A DNA stretch of 64,000 nt. Origin: Brachyhypopomus gauderio (taxonomy: Eukaryota > Chordata > Actinopteri > Gymnotiformes > Hypopomidae). Every line of letters begins with the position of its first letter. The stretch's first letter is position 1. This document shows positions 6,922 through 27,517 of this stretch, in pieces. The notes beneath the pieces were generated by a model, which searched no databases, had not been told where the DNA came from, and worked only from the letters and a program-made list of their open reading frames with translations. The translations under genes and the position numbers were made by a program. The DNA lies in the NCBI RefSeq assembly GCF_052324685.1, contig NC_135212.1, positions 49,813,898 through 49,877,897 of the forward strand. Direction: 5' to 3'.

Positions 6922-9407
6922 AATTACGGTTGTGTGTCGATTGCGATTTCAAAGATGCAAACACTTTCACAGCACAAAAGGAAGCTTGTCTGACTTGTGG
7001 GTCCTGCACTTACATCAGGAGACACGATTGTCAGAAATTTAAAAAAGCAACACCGACGAAGGTGGGATTCGAACCCACGCGAGCTATGCAAAATGGATAA
7101 GCAGTCCATCACCTTAACCTCTAGGCCACCTCGTCGTTTGTGGTTGTGTGTCGATAGCAATTTCAAAGAAGCAAACACTTTCACAGCAAAAAAGAAGGCT
7201 TTTTTGACTTGTGGGTCCTGCACTTACATCAGGAGACACGATTGTCAGAAATTTAAAAAAGCAACACCGACGAAGGTGGGATTCGAACCCACGCGTGCTA
7301 TGCAAAATTGATTAGCAGTCCATCACCTTAACCTCTAGGCCACCTCGTCGTTTGTGGTTGTGTGTCGATTGCGATTTCAAAGATGCAAACACTTTCACAG
7401 CACAAAAGAAGGCTTATCTGACTTGTGGGTCCTGCACTTACACCAGGAGACACGATTGTCAGAAATTAAAGAAAGCAACACCGACGAAGGTGGGATTCGA
7501 ACCCACGCGTGCTATGCACAATGGATTAGCAGTCCATCGCCTTAACCTCTCGGCCACCTCGTCAATTACGGTTGTGTGTCGATTGCGATTTCAAAGATGC
7601 AAATACTTTCACAGCACAAAAGGAGGCGTATCTGACTTGTGGGTCCTGCACTTATATCAGGAGACACGATGGTCAGAAATTAAAGAAAGCAACACCGACG
7701 AAGGTGGGATTCGAACCCACGCGTGCTATGCACAATGGATTAGCAGTCCATCGCCTTAACCTCTCGGCCACCTCGTCGTTTGTGGTTGTGTGTCGATAGC
7801 AATTTCAAAGAAGCAAACACTTTCACAGCACAAAAGAAGGCTTTTCTGACTTGTGGGTCCTGTAGTTACAGCAGGAGACACGATTGTCAGAAATTAAAGA
7901 AAGCAACACCGACGGAGGTGGGATTCGAACACACACGTGCTATGCATAATGGATTAGCAGTCCATCGCCTTAATCTATCCGCCACCTTGTCGTTTGTGCT
8001 TGTGTGTCGATTGCGATTTCAAAGATGCAAACACTTTCACAGCACAAAAGCAGCCGTATCTGACTTGTGGGTACTGCACTTACACCAGGAGACATGATTG
8101 TCAGAAATTAAAGAAAGCAACACCGACGAAGGTGGGATTCGAACCCACGCGTGCTATGCACAATGGATTAGCAGTCCATCGCCTTAACCTCTCGGCCACC
8201 TCGTCAATTACAGTTGTGTGTCGATTGCGATTTCAAAGATGCAAACACTTTCACAGCACAAAAGGAGGCTTATCTGACTTGTGGGTCCTGCACTTACTTC
8301 AGGAGACACGATTGTCAGAAATTAAAGAAAACAACACCGACGAATGTGGTATACAAACCCACGCGTGCAAAGCACAATGGATTAGCAGTCCATCGCCTTA
8401 ACCTCTTGGCTACCTCGTCGCTTGTGGTTTTGTGTCGATTGCGATTTCAAAGATGCAAACACTTTCACAGCACAAAAGCAGCCGTATCTGACTTGTGGGT
8501 ACTGCACTTACACCAGGAGACACGATTGTCAGAAATTAAAGAAAGCAACACCGACGAAGGTGGGATTCGAACCCACGCGTGCTATGCATAATGGATTAGC
8601 AGTCCATCTCCTTAACCTCTCGGCCACCTCGTCAATCACGGTTGTGTGTCGATTGCGATTTCAAAGATGCAAACACTTTCACAGCACAAAAGGAGGCTTG
8701 TCTGACTTGTGGGTCCTGCACTTACATCAGGAGACACGATTGTCAGAAATTTAAAAAAGCAACACCGACGAAGGTGGGATTCGAACCCACGCGAGCTATG
8801 CAAAATGGATAAGCAGTCCATCACCTTAACCTCTAGGCCACCTCGTCGTTTGTGGTTGTGTGTCGATAGCAATTTCAAAGAAGCAAACACTTTCACAGCA
8901 CAAAAGAAGGCTTTTTTGACTTGTGGGTCCTGCACTTACATCAGGAGACACGATTGTCAGAAATTTAAAAAAGCAACACCGACGAAGGTGGGATTCGAAC
9001 CCACGCGTGCTATGCAAAATTGATTAGCAGTCCATCACCTTAACCTCTAGGCCACCTCGTCGTTTGTGGTTGTTTGTCGATTGCGATTTCAAAGATGCAA
9101 ACACTTTCACAGCACAAAAGAAGGCTTATCTGACTTGTGGGTCCTGCACTTACACCAGGAGACACGATTGTCAGAAATTAAAGAAAGCAACACCGACGAA
9201 GGTGGGATTCTAACCCACGCGTGCTATGCACAATGGATTAGCAGTCCATCGCCTTAACCTCTCGGCCACCTCGTCAATTACGGTTGTGTGTCGATTGCGA
9301 TTTCAAAGATGCAAATACTTTCACAGCACAAAAGGAGGCGTATCTGACTTGTGGGTCCTGCACTTATATCAGGAGACACGATGGTCAGAAATTAAAGAAA
9401 GCAACAC

Positions 9408-9489
9408 CAACGAAGGTGGGATTCGAACCCACGCGTGCTATGCACAATGGATTTGCAGTCCATTGCCTTAACCTCTCGGCCACCTCGTC
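9408..9489 (-). tRNA. tRNA-Ser body with anticodon GCA (cysteine anticodon)
   Basis: The plus strand reads ggatttgcag where all other copies have ggattagcag or a base-37 variant. T36 is therefore A and the anticodon at 9454-9456 becomes GCA, which reads the cysteine codons UGC/UGU. The body is still serine type: long variable arm GTGC/GCAC, G73, intact A and B boxes. Two further changes are mild: C72 to T (G1-U72 wobble) and G26 to A. SerRS recognises the variable arm and discriminator and not the anticodon, so by family knowledge this tRNA would be expected to carry serine to cysteine codons if expressed. The 3' flank is TTTCTTT, without a T4. The equivalent locus in the duplicated block (13046-13127) has GCU, so the change is recent or an error. 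Confidence 0.85.
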
Positions 9490-9835
9490 GTTTGTGGTTG
9501 TGTGTCGATAGCAATTTCAAAGAAGCAAACACTTTCACAGCACAAAAGAAGGCTTTTCTGACTTGTGGGTCCTGTAGTTACAGCAGGAGACACGATTGTC
9601 AGAAATTAAAGAAAGCAACACCGACGAAGGTGGGATTCGAACCCACGCGTGCAAAGCACAATGGATTAGCAGTCCATCACCTTAACCTCTCGGCCACCTC
9701 ATCGTTTGTGGTTGTGTGTCGATAGCAATTTCAAAGAAGCAAGCACTTTCACAGCACAAAAGAAGGCCTTTCTGACTTGTGGGTCCTGTAGTTACATCAG
9801 GAGACACGATTGTCAGAAATTAAAAAAAGCAACAC

Positions 9836-12900: not shown

Positions 12901-15900
12901 CGGCCACCTCGTCAATTACGGTTGTGTGTCGATTGCGATTTCAAAGATGCAAATACTTTCACAGCACAAAAGGAGGCGTATCTGACTTGTGGGTCCTGCA
13001 CTTATATCAGGAGACACGATGGTCAGAAATTAAAGAAAGCAACACCGACGAAGGTGGGATTCGAACCCACGCGTGCTATGCACAATGGATTAGCAGTCCA
13101 TCGCCTTAACCTCTCGGCCACCTCGTCGTTTGTGGTTGTGTGTCGATAGCAATTTCAAAGAAGCAAACACTTTCACAGCACAAAAGAAGGCTTTTCTGAC
13201 TTGTGGGTCCTGTAGTTACAGCAGGAGACACGATTGTCAGAAATTAAAGAAAGCAACACCGACGAAGGTGGGATTCGAACCCACGCGTGCAAAGCACAAT
13301 GGATTAGCAGTCCATCACCTTAACCTCTCGGCCACCTCATCGTTTGTGGTTGTGTGTCGATAGCAATTTCAAAGAAGCAAACACTTTCACAGCACAAAAG
13401 AAGGCTTTTCTGACTTGTGGGTCCTGTAGTTACAGCAGGAGACACGATTGTCAGAAATTAAAGAAAGCAACACCGACGGAGGTGGGATTCGAACACACAC
13501 GTGCTATGCATAATGGATTAGCAGTCCATCGCCTTAATCTATCCGCCAGCTTGTCGTTTGTGCTTGTGTGTCGATTGCGATTTCAAAGATGCAAACACTT
13601 TCACAGCACAAAAGCAGCCGTATCTGACTTGTGGGTACTGCACTTACACCAGGAGACATGATTGTCAGAAATTAAAGAAAGCAACACCGACGAAGGTGGG
13701 ATTCGAACCCACGCGTGCTATGCACAATGGATTAGCAGTCCATCGCCTTAACCTCTCGGCCACCTCGTCAATTACAGTTGTGTGTCGATTGCGATTTCAA
13801 AGATGCAAACACTTTCACAGCACAAAAGGAGGCTTATCTGACTTGTGGGTCCTGCACTTACTTCAGGAGACACGATTGTCAGAAATTAAAGAAAACAACA
13901 CCGACGAATGTGGTATACAAACCCACGCGTGCAAAGCACAATGGATTAGCAGTCCATCGCCTTAACCTCTTGGCTACCTCGTCGCTTGTGGTTTTGTGTC
14001 GATTGCGATTTCAAAGATGCAAACACTTTCACAGCACAAAAGCAGCCGTATCTGACTTGTGGGTACTGCACTTACACCAGGAGACACGATTGTCAGAAAT
14101 TAAAGAAAGCAACACCGACGAAGGTGGGATTCGAACCCACGCGTGCTATGCATAATGGATTAGCAGTCCATCTCCTTAACCTCTCGGCCACCTCGTCAAT
14201 CACGGTTGTGTGTCGATTGCGATTTCAAAGATGCAAACACTTTCACAGCACAAAAGGAGGCTTGTCTGACTTGTGGGTCCTGCACTTACATCAGGAGACA
14301 CGATTGTCAGAAATTTAAAAAAGCAACACCGACGAAGGTGGGATTCGAACCCACGCGAGCTATGCAAAATGGATAAGCAGTCCATCACCTTAACCTCTAG
14401 GCCACCTCGTCGTTTGTGGTTGTGTGTCGATAGCAATTTCAAAGAAGCAAACACTTTCACAGCACAAAAGAAGGCTTTTTTGACTTGTGGGTCCTGCACT
14501 TACATCAGGAGACACGATTGTCAGAAATTTAAAAAAGCAACACCGACGAAGGTGGGATTCGAACCCACGCGTGCTATGCAAAATTGATTAGCAGTCCATC
14601 ACCTTAACCTCTAGGCCACCTCGTCGTTTGTGGTTGTTTGTCGATTGCGATTTCAAAGATGCAAACACTTTCACAGCACAAAAGAAGGCTTATCTGACTT
14701 GTGGGTCCTGCACTTACACCAGGAGACACGATTGTCAGAAATTAAAGAAAGCAACACCGACGAAGGTGGGATTCTAACCCACGCGTGCTATGCACAATGG
14801 ATTAGCAGTCCATCGCCTTAACCTCTCGGCCACCTCGTCAATTACGGTTGTGTGTCGATTGCGATTTCAAAGATGCAAACACTTTCACAGCACAAAAGGA
14901 AGCTTGTCTGACTTGTGGGTCCTGCACTTACATCAGGAGACACGATTGTCAGAAATTTAAAAAAGCAACACCGACGAAGGTGGGATTCGAACCCACGCGA
15001 GCTATGCAAAATGGATAAGCAGTCCATCACCTTAACCTCTAGGCCACCTCGTCGTTTGTGGTTGTGTGTCGATAGCAATTTCAAAGAAGCAAACACTTTC
15101 ACAGCAAAAAAGAAGGCTTTTTTGACTTGTGGGTCCTGCACTTACATCAGGAGACACGATTGTCAGAAATTTAAAAAAGCAACACCGACGAAGGTGGGAT
15201 TCGAACCCACGCGTGCTATGCAAAATTGATTAGCAGTCCATCACCTTAACCTCTAGGCCACCTCGTCGTTTGTGGTTGTGTGTCGATTGCGATTTCAAAG
15301 ATGCAAACACTTTCACAGCACAAAAGAAGGCTTATCTGACTTGTGGGTCCTGCACTTACACCAGGAGACACGATTGTCAGAAATTAAAGAAAGCAACACC
15401 GACGAAGGTGGGATTCGAACCCACGCGTGCTATGCACAATGGATTAGCAGTCCATCGCCTTAACCTCTCGGCCACCTCGTCAATTACGGTTGTGTGTCGA
15501 TTGCGATTTCAAAGATGCAAATACTTTCACAGCACAAAAGGAGGCGTATCTGACTTGTGGGTCCTGCACTTATATCAGGAGACACGATGGTCAGAAATTA
15601 AAGAAAGCAACACCGACGAAGGTGGGATTCGAACCCACGCGTGCTATGCACAATGGATTAGCAGTCCATCGCCTTAACCTCTCGGCCACCTCGTCGTTTG
15701 TGGTTGTGTGTCGATAGCAATTTCAAAGAAGCAAACACTTTCACAGCACAAAAGAAGGCTTTTCTGACTTGTGGGTCCTGTAGTTACAGCAGGAGACACG
15801 ATTGTCAGAAATTAAAGAAAGCAACACCGACGGAGGTGGGATTCGAACACACACGTGCTATGCATAATGGATTAGCAGTCCATCGCCTTAATCTATCCGC

Positions 15901-16979: not shown

Positions 16980-18823
16980 GTTTGTGGTTGTTTGTCGATT
17001 GCGATTTCAAAGATGCAAACACTTTCACAGCACAAAAGAAGGCTTATCTGACTTGTGGGTCCTGCACTTACACCAGGAGACACGATTGTCAGAAATTAAA
17101 GAAAGCAACACCGACGAAGGTGGGATTCTAACCCACGCGTGCTATGCACAATGGATTAGCAGTCCATCGCCTTAACCTCTCGGCCACCTCGTCAATTACG
17201 GTTGTGTGTCGATTGCGATTTCAAAGATGCAAATACTTTCACAGCACAAAAGGAGGCGTGTCTGACTTGTGGGTCCTGCACTTATATCAGGAGACACGAT
17301 GGTCAGAAATTAAAGAAAGCAACACCGACGAAGGTGGGATTCGAACCCACGCATGCTATGCACAATGGATTAGCAGTCCATCGCCTTAACCTCTAGGCCA
17401 CCTCGTCGTTTGTGGTTGTGTGTCGATAGCAATTTCAAAGAAGCAAACACTTTCACAGCACAAAAGAAGGCTTTTCTGACTTGTGGGTCCTGTAGTTACA
17501 GCAGGAGACACGATTGTCAGAAATTAAAGAAAGCAACACCGACGAAGGTGGGATTCGAACCCACGCGTGCAAAGCACAATGGATTAGCAGTCCATCACCT
17601 TAACCTCTCGGCCACCTCATCGTTTGTGGTTGTGTGTCGATAGCAATTTCAAAGAAGCAAACACTTTCACAGCACAAAAGAAGGCTTTTCTGACTTGTGG
17701 GTCCTGTAGTTACAGCAGGAGACACGATTGTCAGAAATTAAAGAAAGCAACACCGACGGAGGTGGGATTCGAACACACACGTGCTATGCATAATGGATTA
17801 GCAGTCCATCGCCTTAATCTATCCGCCACCTTGTCGTTTGTGCTTGTGTGTCGATTGCGATTTCAAAGATGCAAACACTTTCACAGCACAAAAGCAGCCG
17901 TATCTGACTTGTGGGTACTGCACTTACACCAGGAGACATGATTGTCAGAAATTAAAGAAAGCAACACCGACGAAGGTGGGATTCGAACCCACGCGTGCTA
18001 TGCACAATGGATTAGCAGTCCATCGCCTTAACCTCTCGGCCACCTCGTCAATTACAGTTGTGTGTCGATTGCGATTTCAAAGATGCAAACACTTTCACAG
18101 CACAAAAGGAGGCTTATCTGACTTGTGGGTCCTGCACTTACTTCAGGAGACACGATTGTCAGAAATTAAAGAAAACAACACCGACGAATGTGGTATACAA
18201 ACCCACGCGTGCAAAGCACAATGGATTAGCAGTCCATCGCCTTAACCTCTTGGCTACCTCGTCGCTTGTGGTTTTGTGTCGATTGCGATTTCAAAGATGC
18301 AAACACTTTCACAGCACAAAAGCAGCCGTATCTGACTTGTGGGTACTGCACTTACACCAGGAGACACGATTGTCAGAAATTAAAGAAAGCAACACCGACG
18401 AAGGTGGGATTCGAACCCACGCGTGCAAAGCACAATGGATTAGCAGTCCATCACCTTAACCTCTCGGCCACCTCATCGTTTGTGGTTGTGTGTCGATAGC
18501 AATTTCAAAGAAGCAAGCACTTTCACAGCACAAAAGAAGGCCTTTCTGACTTGTGGGTCCTGTAGTTACATCAGGAGACACGATTGTCAGAAATTAAAAA
18601 AAGCAACACCGACGAAGGTGGGATTCGAACCCACGCATGCAAAGCACAATGGATTAGCAGTCCATCGCCTTAACCTCTCGGCCACCTCGTCAATTATGGT
18701 TGTGTGTCGATTGTGATTTCAAAGATGCAAACACTTTCACAGCACAAAAGCAGGCTTGTCTGACTTGTGGGTCCTGCACTTACATCAGGAGACACGATTG
18801 TCAGAAATTAAAAAAAGCAACAC

Positions 18824-19119: not shown

Positions 19120-19893
19120 AATTACGGTTGTGTGTCGATTGCGATTTCAAAGATGCAAATACTTTCACAGCACAAAAGGAGGCTTATCTGACTTGTGGGT
19201 CCTGCACTTATATCAGGAGACACGATTGTCAGAAATTAAAGAAAGCAACACCGACGAAGGTGGGATTCGAACCCACGCGTGCTATGCACAATGGATTAGC
19301 AGTCCATTGCCTTAACCTCTCGGCCACCTCGTCGTTTGTGGTTGTGTGTCGATAGCAATTTCAAAGAAGCAAACACTTTCACAGCACAAAAGCAGCCGTA
19401 TATGACTTGTTGGTCCTGCACTTACAACAGGAGACACGATTGTCAGAAATTAAAGAAAGCAACACAGACGAAGGTGGGATTCGAACCCACGCGTGCTATG
19501 CACAATGGATTAGCAGTCCATCCCCTTAACCTCTTGGCCACCTCGTCGTTTGTGGTTGTGTGTCGATTGCGATTTCAAAGATGCAAACACTTTCACAGCA
19601 CAAAAGGAGGCTTATCTGACTTGTGGGTCCTGCACTTATATCAGGAGACACGATGGTCAGAAATTAAAGAAAGCAACACCGACGAAGGTGGGATTCGAAC
19701 CCACGCGTGCTATGCACAATGGATTAGCAGTCCATCGCCTTAACCTCTCGGCCACCTCGTCGTTTGTGGTTGTGTGTCGATAGCAATTTCAAAGAAGCAA
19801 ACACTTTCACAGCACAAAAGCAGCCGTATATGACTTGTTGGTCCTGCACTTACAACAGGAGACACGATTGTCAGAAATTAAAGAAAGCAACAC

Positions 19894-19975: not shown

Positions 19976-20617
19976 GTTTGTGGTTGTGTGTCGATTGCGA
20001 TTTCAAAGATGCAAACACTTTCACAGCACAAAAGAAGGCTTATCTGACTTGTGGGTCCTGCACTTATATCAGGAGACACGATTGTCAGAAATTAAAGAAA
20101 GCAACACCGACGAAGGTGGGATTCGAACCCACGCGTGCTATGCACAATGGATTAGCAGTCCATCGCCTTAACCTCTCGGCCACCTCGTCAATTACAGTTG
20201 TGTGTCGATTGCGATTTCAAAGATGCAAACACTTTCACAGCACAAAAGGAGGCTTATCTGACTTGTGGGTCCTGCACTTACAACAGGAGACACGATTGTC
20301 AGAAATTAAAGAAAGCAACACCGACGAAGGTGGGATTCTAACCCACGCGTGCTATGCACAATGGATTAGCAGTCCATCCCCTTAACCTCTCGGCCACCTC
20401 GTCGTTTGTGGTTGTGTGTCGATTGCGATTTCAAAGAAGCAAACACTTTCACAGCACAAAAGCAGCCGTATATGACTTGTTGGTCCTGCACTTACAACAG
20501 GAGACACGATTGTCAGAAATTAAAGAAAGCAACACCGACGAAGGTGGGATTCGAACCCACGCGTGCTATGCACAATGGATTAGCAGTCCATCGCCTTAAC
20601 CTCTCGGCCACCTCGTC

Positions 20618-26661: not shown

Positions 26662-27517
26662 GTTTGTGGTTGTGTGTCGATTGCGATTTCAAAGATGCAA
26701 ACACTTTCACAGCACAAAAGCAGCCGTATATGACTTGTGGGTCCTGCACTTACAACAGGAGACACGATTGTCAGAAATTAAAGAAAGCAACACCGACGAA
26801 GGTGGGATTCGAACCCACGCGTGCTATGCACAATGGATTAGCAGTCCATCCCCTTAACCTCTCGGCCACCTCGTCGTTTGTGGTTGTGTGTCGATTGCGA
26901 TTTCAAAGATGCAAACACTTTCACAGCACAAAAGGAGGCTTATCTGACTTGTGGGTCCTGCACTTATATCAGGAGACACGATTGTCAGAAATTAAAGAAA
27001 GCAACACCGACGAAGGTAGGATTCGAACCCACGCGTGCTATGCACAATGGATTAGCAGTCCATCGCCTTAACCTCTCGGCCACCTCGTCGTTTGTGGTTG
27101 TGTGTCGATAGCAATTTCAAAGAAGCAAACACTTTCACAGCACAAAAGCAGCCGTATATGACTTGTGGGTCCTGCACTTACAACAGGAGACACGATTGTC
27201 AGAAATTTAAAAAAGCAACACCGACGAAGGTGGGATTCGAACCCACGCGAGCTATGCAAAATGGATAAGCAGTCCATCACCTTAACCTCTAGGCCACCTC
27301 GTCGTTTGTGGTTGTGTGTCGATAGCAATTTCAAAGAAGCAAACACTTTCACAGCAAAAAAGAAGGCTTTTTTGACTTGTGGGTCCTGCACTTACATCAG
27401 GAGACACGATTGTCAGAAATTTAAAAAAGCAACACCGACGAAGGTGGGATTCGAACCCACGCGTGCTATGCAAAATTGATTAGCAGTCCATCACCTTTAC
27501 CTCTAGGCCACCTCGTC

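Follow-up and report, generated by a model that had tools for sequence, protein, structure and literature searches.

The window analysed here, i.e. the whole stretch of 64,000 nucleotides (C2:49,813,898-49,877,897 of a 796.5-Mb genome assembled in 840 contigs), is occupied from end to end (positions 1 to 64000, minus strand) by a tandem array of 214-bp tRNA-Ser(GCU) units, recognized with BLAST and Tandem Repeats Finder, which extends past both window ends. Tandem Repeats Finder reported the 214-bp period in three long stretches jointly covering the window, ARAGORN placed 294 tRNAs in it, every one on the minus strand, and Rfam gave 294 matches, all of them tRNA among the 150 matches listed. 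BLAST searches with one tRNA body produced 299 hits, from which 297 full units with 102 distinct sequences were delimited, 293 of them exactly 214 bp long. With so many head-to-tail copies of one unit, the locus is a giant tandem tRNA gene array. It also contains internally duplicated blocks, the longest of which comprises 33 units and differs from its partner by one change. A few steps between units are irregular, each type occurring twice: 266 bp (owing to a 52-bp duplication within the spacer) at 20536 and 31713, and 211 bp at 27436 and 54449.

One copy (9408 to 9489, minus strand) departs from the rest in its anticodon. ARAGORN labels it (as 9407-9490) 'Cys(gca)', the sole call other than Ser(gct) among the 294 tRNAs of the window, and the Rfam tRNA model matches it with 61.7 bits. 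The original prediction of a serine tRNA body with the anticodon GCA was correct according to ARAGORN, Rfam and tests of stems and invariant bases, and the anticodon does lie at 9454-9456, where 296 of the 297 window units read GCU; the altered base, U36A, is position 9454. The 13-mer GGACTGCAAATCC, covering the anticodon region, occurs once in the window compared with a mean of 0.01 in shuffled sequences. Both serine identity elements expected of this copy are present, namely the discriminator G73 (9408) and the long variable arm (9433-9446), in which the four tested stem pairs are intact, and among all stem pairs and invariant bases tested none is broken or altered. With regard to promoter usability, the A box TGGCCGAGAGG (9472-9482) and the B box GGTTCGAATCC (9419-9429) match their motifs, so that the earlier description of both as intact is upheld, and there is no nearby TTTT: the sequence just past the tRNA, TTTCTTT (9394-9400), lacks a four-T run, and the first TTTT of the downstream spacer begins at spacer base 75 (9330-9333). 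RNA folding gave -28.5 kcal/mol for this copy and -30.8 kcal/mol for the copy at 13046, with an identical minimum-energy shape; in the free fold of the GCA copy the variable arm has only 2 pairs. The U36A change creates A36-A37-A38, a motif for the modification i6A37, which suits codons starting with U. In terms of class, the copy has the tRNA-Ser body (long arm, G73) but not the anticodon GCU, and it shares with tRNA-Cys the anticodon GCA but neither U73 nor the short variable loop. A serine body joined to a non-serine anticodon is one mark of a mistranslating tRNASer variant, and this is the combination found here.

The change had been described as affecting one base (T36 to A), which is true of the anticodon but not of the gene. 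The whole downstream spacer of the GCA copy is found in 32 window units, of which 29 have the consensus tRNA, 2 are otherwise changed and 1 is the GCA copy itself. Compared with the 29 consensus units, taken as the parent class, the GCA copy carries three differences, all within the tRNA: T36A, G26A (position 9464) and C81T in unit numbering, which corresponds to C72U (position 9409) and turns the G1-C72 pair into G1.U72. Among the GCU copies of the window, G26A is present in 1 (19252-19333) and C72U in 6. The equivalents of the GCA copy in duplicated blocks keep GCU, as had been claimed: the one at 13046-13127 (lag of 17 units) has the consensus tRNA and belongs to the parent class, and the one at 17326-17407 (lag of 37 units) carries G13T and C55T in its tRNA.

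Variation is common throughout the window array. All tested pairs and invariant bases are kept by 148 of 293 copies, 218 of 293 have matching A and B boxes, the consensus body is found in 117 of the 296 GCU units, and TTTT is absent before spacer base 75 in 221 of 293 units, the GCA copy included. Since U replaces G73 in 12 of 293 units and C56 is lost in 33 of 293, many window copies look degenerate. At 79 non-anticodon tRNA sites 58 minor alleles were counted (0.73 per site), which gives an expectation of 2.2 minor alleles over the three anticodon sites and a probability of 0.89 for at least one; in an array so variable and so large, some anticodon change is thus expected by chance. Single copies give no sign of selection on their tRNA bodies: alleles found in at most 2 of the 293 units of 214 bp number 22 at the 82 tRNA sites and 13 at the 132 spacer sites, so that these rare alleles have the higher density in the tRNA (Fisher P = 0.002). 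Of the alleles seen once among these 293 units, 18 of 21 are transversions. Transcription-linked mutation was considered as a cause of the tRNA-dense rare alleles and is not claimed, as 10 of 17 recent block changes fall in the tRNA (P = 0.13) and 3 of those 10 are the GCA unit's own.

The GCA anticodon had also been called a private change. This is accurate within the window, where only one copy has it, but not in the genome, where the exact 17-base GCA anticodon arm occurs at 22 places, 4 on contig C2 and 18 on contig C40 (C40:423,410-479,301), compared with 3,162 GCU arms found with the exact pattern. A 200-kb stretch of C2, whose near end lies 140 kb left of the window, contains 837 further copies (833 GCU, 3 GCA and 1 GCG), and in four 10-kb pieces flanking the window, two per side, all 185 ARAGORN calls are gct. 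On C2 and C40 the census, which requires an exact anticodon stem and is thus escaped by copies with an altered one, yielded GCG in 2, ACA in 2, ACU in 8 and GUU in 1 copy against the 3,162 with GCU; matches with other triplets on other contigs numbered 11, plus one, plus one GUU on contig C41. Further sequence collections (viral contigs and genome contigs) gave 0 matches.

Contig C40 (2.26 Mb) bears another Ser(GCU) array, whose units belong to the same 214-bp family, with pattern matches from 149325 to 479301. Its segment C40:422001-442000 contains 93 copies, of which 8 are GCA (one with a deletion) and 2 ACA, and the consensus body is present in 6 of 82 GCU copies there. The eight ACU copies, whose anticodon still reads serine codons, lie at C40:292780-381954. 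The two GCG copies, serine bodies with an anticodon for arginine codons, are located in related units at C2:49580075 and C2:49905441, the first of which differs from three GCU units by that base only. The C2 array is also interrupted by insertions, at 49484024, 49508939, 49566168 and 49581145: a transposase element (PF13843, DDE_Tnp_1_7), present twice with a 1-base difference, a reverse-transcriptase element (PF00078) and one insertion without a long reading frame. The transposase is presumably of the piggyBac type.

The copies with changed anticodons were grouped by the other changes in their tRNA bodies. The window copy (G26A, C72U) constitutes lineage I, and lineage II consists of three identical C2 units (C3U, C25U). 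Lineage III comprises three C40 units (C12U, C69U), two of them with a T-stem mismatch and one of these two also with G73U, and lineage IV fifteen C40 copies (G45C, C56U), two with a deletion and one cut by foreign sequence. Lineage V is formed by two C40 copies with the anticodon ACA (G10C). Outside these lineages are the two GCG copies on related C2 units and the one GUU copy on C40. The tested pairs and invariant bases are all unbroken in five GCA copies: that of the window, the three of lineage II and one on C40, which is the sole intact member of lineage III. Judged from the unit sequences, the change to GCA is found on at least four unit backgrounds and at 22 places, several of them reached via block duplication. 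A tree of 205 unit haplotypes, calculated with the anticodon columns omitted and after dropping C2 GCU haplotypes seen once, units with indels and very divergent units, requires four changes to A36, and four are also forced by its well-supported branches; its inner branches are mostly weak, and recombination within units weakens any such array tree. Some C40 units entered the tree twice, which inflates its C40 copy numbers but does not bear on the number of changes. Some of the four gains could represent short gene conversion instead of new mutation.

Lineages I and II may be one allele that survived block duplication, because they have a common spacer and five neighbouring units in common on one side, four of them identical and one with a single change. 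The three C2 GCA copies follow units identical to those at 9194, 8980, 8766 and 8338, as the copy at 9408 does. The same three flanking units occur at 8 places in the left 200 kb of C2 (3 GCA, 5 GCU) and at 3 places in the window (1 GCA, 2 GCU); with a context this common, a single origin of the two lineages is likely rather than established. At four C2 places with those flanking units the consensus GCU tRNA is found, as would be the case if GCU had been restored there by homogenisation or was the older state. A private burst of mutation in the GCA unit was also considered. Colinear duplicated blocks show 17 changes over 226 units, 3 of them in the GCA unit (P about 0.013 by simulation), and adding the three changes of unit 17326, which differs by six and falls outside the block rule, gives P of about 1e-4 for two such units. 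The burst was not retained, as GCA copies occur in the same local context elsewhere on C2 and can be explained at least equally well by an allele that is older and shared, the copy at 13046 having been homogenised to the common class.

Charging by SerRS, which had been predicted for the GCA copy, agrees with published identity rules and with the behaviour of anticodon-swapped yeast tRNASer. The identity elements of eukaryotic serine tRNA are described as G73 and the large variable region, with none in the anticodon, and those of cysteine tRNA as U73 and GCA (PMC9976931), and yeast tRNASer molecules with engineered swapped anticodons mistranslate (PMC6827378). By analogy, the GCA copy would be expected to accept serine.

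The dose of such a tRNA relative to ordinary cysteine tRNA was estimated from gene counts. Ordinary tRNA-Cys arms number 616 genome-wide by pattern, one match of which, when retrieved, was identified as tRNA-Cys(gca) by ARAGORN. Ordinary tRNA-Cys genes also occur in tandem arrays, at C6:173-41846 and C6:3554331-3594399 with a period near 728 bp, among the matches listed. Both promoter boxes are kept by 7 of the 22 GCA copies (1 of lineage I, 3 of II and 3 of III), the box test having been made on 21 copies and the 22nd, a deletion copy, showing C56U. At equal expression, the window copy would represent 0.16% and the seven box-intact copies 1.1% of Cys-reading genes, both values being gene-share estimates; with 616 ordinary tRNA-Cys arms, any effect of the window copy should be small.

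Exact GCU arms on the forward strand number two, and one of them, on contig C14, is a broken fragment. This canonical-looking Ser(GCU) sequence (C14:6449997) stops after the variable arm, has a foreign acceptor stem and is not recognized as a gene by ARAGORN. Two looser Ser(GCU) patterns led to C2 and C40 places (partly presumed array), to the C14 fragment, and to single places on C3 and C18, in which ARAGORN recognizes no tRNA. With the patterns used, which other arm sequences and unassembled genes escape, no intact Ser(GCU) gene was found outside C2 and C40. In sequence terms, the arrays look like the main tRNA-Ser(GCU) source of the genome, so intact copies are probably expressed, and if the array is expressed, the window GCA copy probably is too, although, like most window units, it has no TTTT before spacer base 75. 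The most frequent form of the GCA copies (15 of 22) lacks C56 of the B box, and many GCA copies may therefore be silent.

The explanation that we favour, with middling confidence, is that 9408-9489 is a real tRNA-Ser copy whose anticodon drifted from GCU to GCA in a giant, fast-turnover array, and that it would act at most as a weak and diluted Cys-to-Ser mistranslator. The GCA copies are most likely a tolerated by-product of copy-by-copy drift and not a change of the genetic code. The window copy would be transcribed by Pol III alongside intact copies, would receive serine from SerRS, an enzyme that recognizes the long arm and G73, and would then read UGC and UGU codons. Its output would be diluted, one gene standing against 616 tRNA-Cys arms, and G26A and the G1.U72 wobble probably reduce it further. 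If expression, charging and decoding are taken as equal, Cys-to-Ser misincorporation of no more than about 0.2% would be expected from this copy, and of about 1% from the seven box-intact GCA copies; at so low a level the allele could persist without a change of the code.

A substantial, if less favoured, possibility is silent drift, in which the GCA copies are pseudogene-like, yield no usable tRNA and carry an anticodon without effect. Several features of the array fit this reading: no more than 148 of 293 window copies are free of broken pairs and altered invariant bases among those tested, both boxes match in 218 of 293, most units have no nearby TTTT, and C56 is lost in lineage IV, i.e. 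in 15 of the 22 GCA copies. Yet five GCA copies, those of lineages I and II and one on C40, are structurally unbroken, and some array copies are probably needed, as no intact Ser(GCU) gene was found outside C2 and C40 with the patterns used.

It is rather improbable, in our judgement, that the array holds tolerated Cys-to-Ser decoders kept by a filter that lets an anticodon mutant persist only if its body is weakened. The 22 substitutions selected in yeast that dampen mistranslating tRNASer to a tolerable activity include G26A and C12U, and 6 of them convert a Watson-Crick pair into G:U (PMC6827378). The simplest copies of lineages I, II and III carry only attenuator-type changes, and each of these lineages is intact in at least one copy despite two such changes, a state rare among GCU copies, of which 441 of 1,205 are structurally intact but just 91 of 1,205 are intact with at least two changes. 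GCU copies with G26A, possible intermediates, exist as well (11 listed from the left 200 kb of C2). On the other hand, at least two body changes are usual among GCU copies (750 of 1,205, 62%), so the extra changes of the GCA copies are not special; G26A (1 copy) and C72U (6 copies) are also seen in window GCU copies, and lineage III is intact in only 1 of its 3 copies. By a post hoc count, attenuator-type changes characterize 3 of 8 changed lineages, the other five (IV, V, the two GCG copies and the GUU copy) having broken pairs or bases, and the pattern, noticed afterwards, is a lead only. The broader proposal that giant tRNA-Ser arrays are a nursery of tolerated mistranslators, in which GCA alleles recur and persist mainly on attenuated bodies (G26A, C12U, G:U wobbles), diluted among thousands of copies, is likewise doubtful. 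If it were true, it would imply a steady low Cys-to-Ser ambiguity and a possible starting point for codon reassignment.

A sequencing or assembly error at one base is very unlikely: long arrays are hard to assemble, but this arm is found at 21 further places, three of them C2 sites with identical units and matching neighbours, and the consensus is unlikely to be noisy when 293 of 297 units share the length of 214 bp. A switch of function, with CysRS charging the copy as a cysteine tRNA, is scarcely credible, as GCA is one cysteine determinant but the copy has G73 rather than U73 and a long variable arm, and 616 ordinary tRNA-Cys arms are present by pattern, the one retrieved being confirmed as tRNA-Cys by ARAGORN.

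Read as a drifted serine tRNA, the GCA copy has several known relatives. Natural human tRNASer anticodon variants, e.g. G35A reading Phe codons (PMC6779403, PMC11415595), likewise combine a serine body, a non-serine anticodon and predicted serylation, and many gene copies have been proposed there as a buffer; the present case differs in its Cys anticodon, its tandem arrays and its spread over at least four backgrounds and 22 copies in one assembly. Engineered yeast tRNASer has also joined a foreign anticodon with G26A (PMC6827378, PMC8473984), whereas the copy described here is natural and has a Cys anticodon and an additional G1.U72. A bacterial tRNASec with the Cys anticodon GCA, that of Aeromonas salmonicida (as told in PMC11415595), is similarly a long-armed tRNA of another amino acid with a Cys anticodon, but there it is a bacterial selenocysteine tRNA and here an ordinary serine body in a eukaryote. 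As in the CUG-Ser yeasts (PMC5951914), a serine tRNA would read a codon of another amino acid, but here there is no reassignment, and 616 normal tRNA-Cys arms persist.

Large clusters or tandem arrays of tRNA genes are described for Phytophthora infestans (PMC9584435), which also has large single-gene arrays, Entamoeba (PMC2652664), and teleosts and Nematostella (PMC2888827); the arrays reported here differ from them in forming a single-gene Ser(GCU) family whose 214-bp unit is repeated thousands of times, with blocks duplicated internally. An oomycete origin of the sequence, considered in view of the P. infestans arrays, was dropped given the genome size of 796.5 Mb and the transposase and reverse transcriptase in the array; an animal source, perhaps a fish, would be a guess. 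Natural tRNASer anticodon variants and giant tRNA arrays are thus both already known. In the literature searched, which left most subscription papers outside it, neither a natural tRNASer with the anticodon GCA nor the combination of a Cys anticodon with several tRNASer backgrounds in one genome was found.

The window GCA copy alone is of little importance. The significance lies in the assembly, in which GCU copies by the thousand stand beside several GCA backgrounds, one of them broken and amplified and some intact but low in copy number, and beside rarer GCG, ACA and GUU copies; in this natural series, dose buffering and attenuator filtering become countable and testable within one genome. 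Tolerance of anticodon mutants where the synthetase ignores the anticodon bears on the drift of the genetic code.
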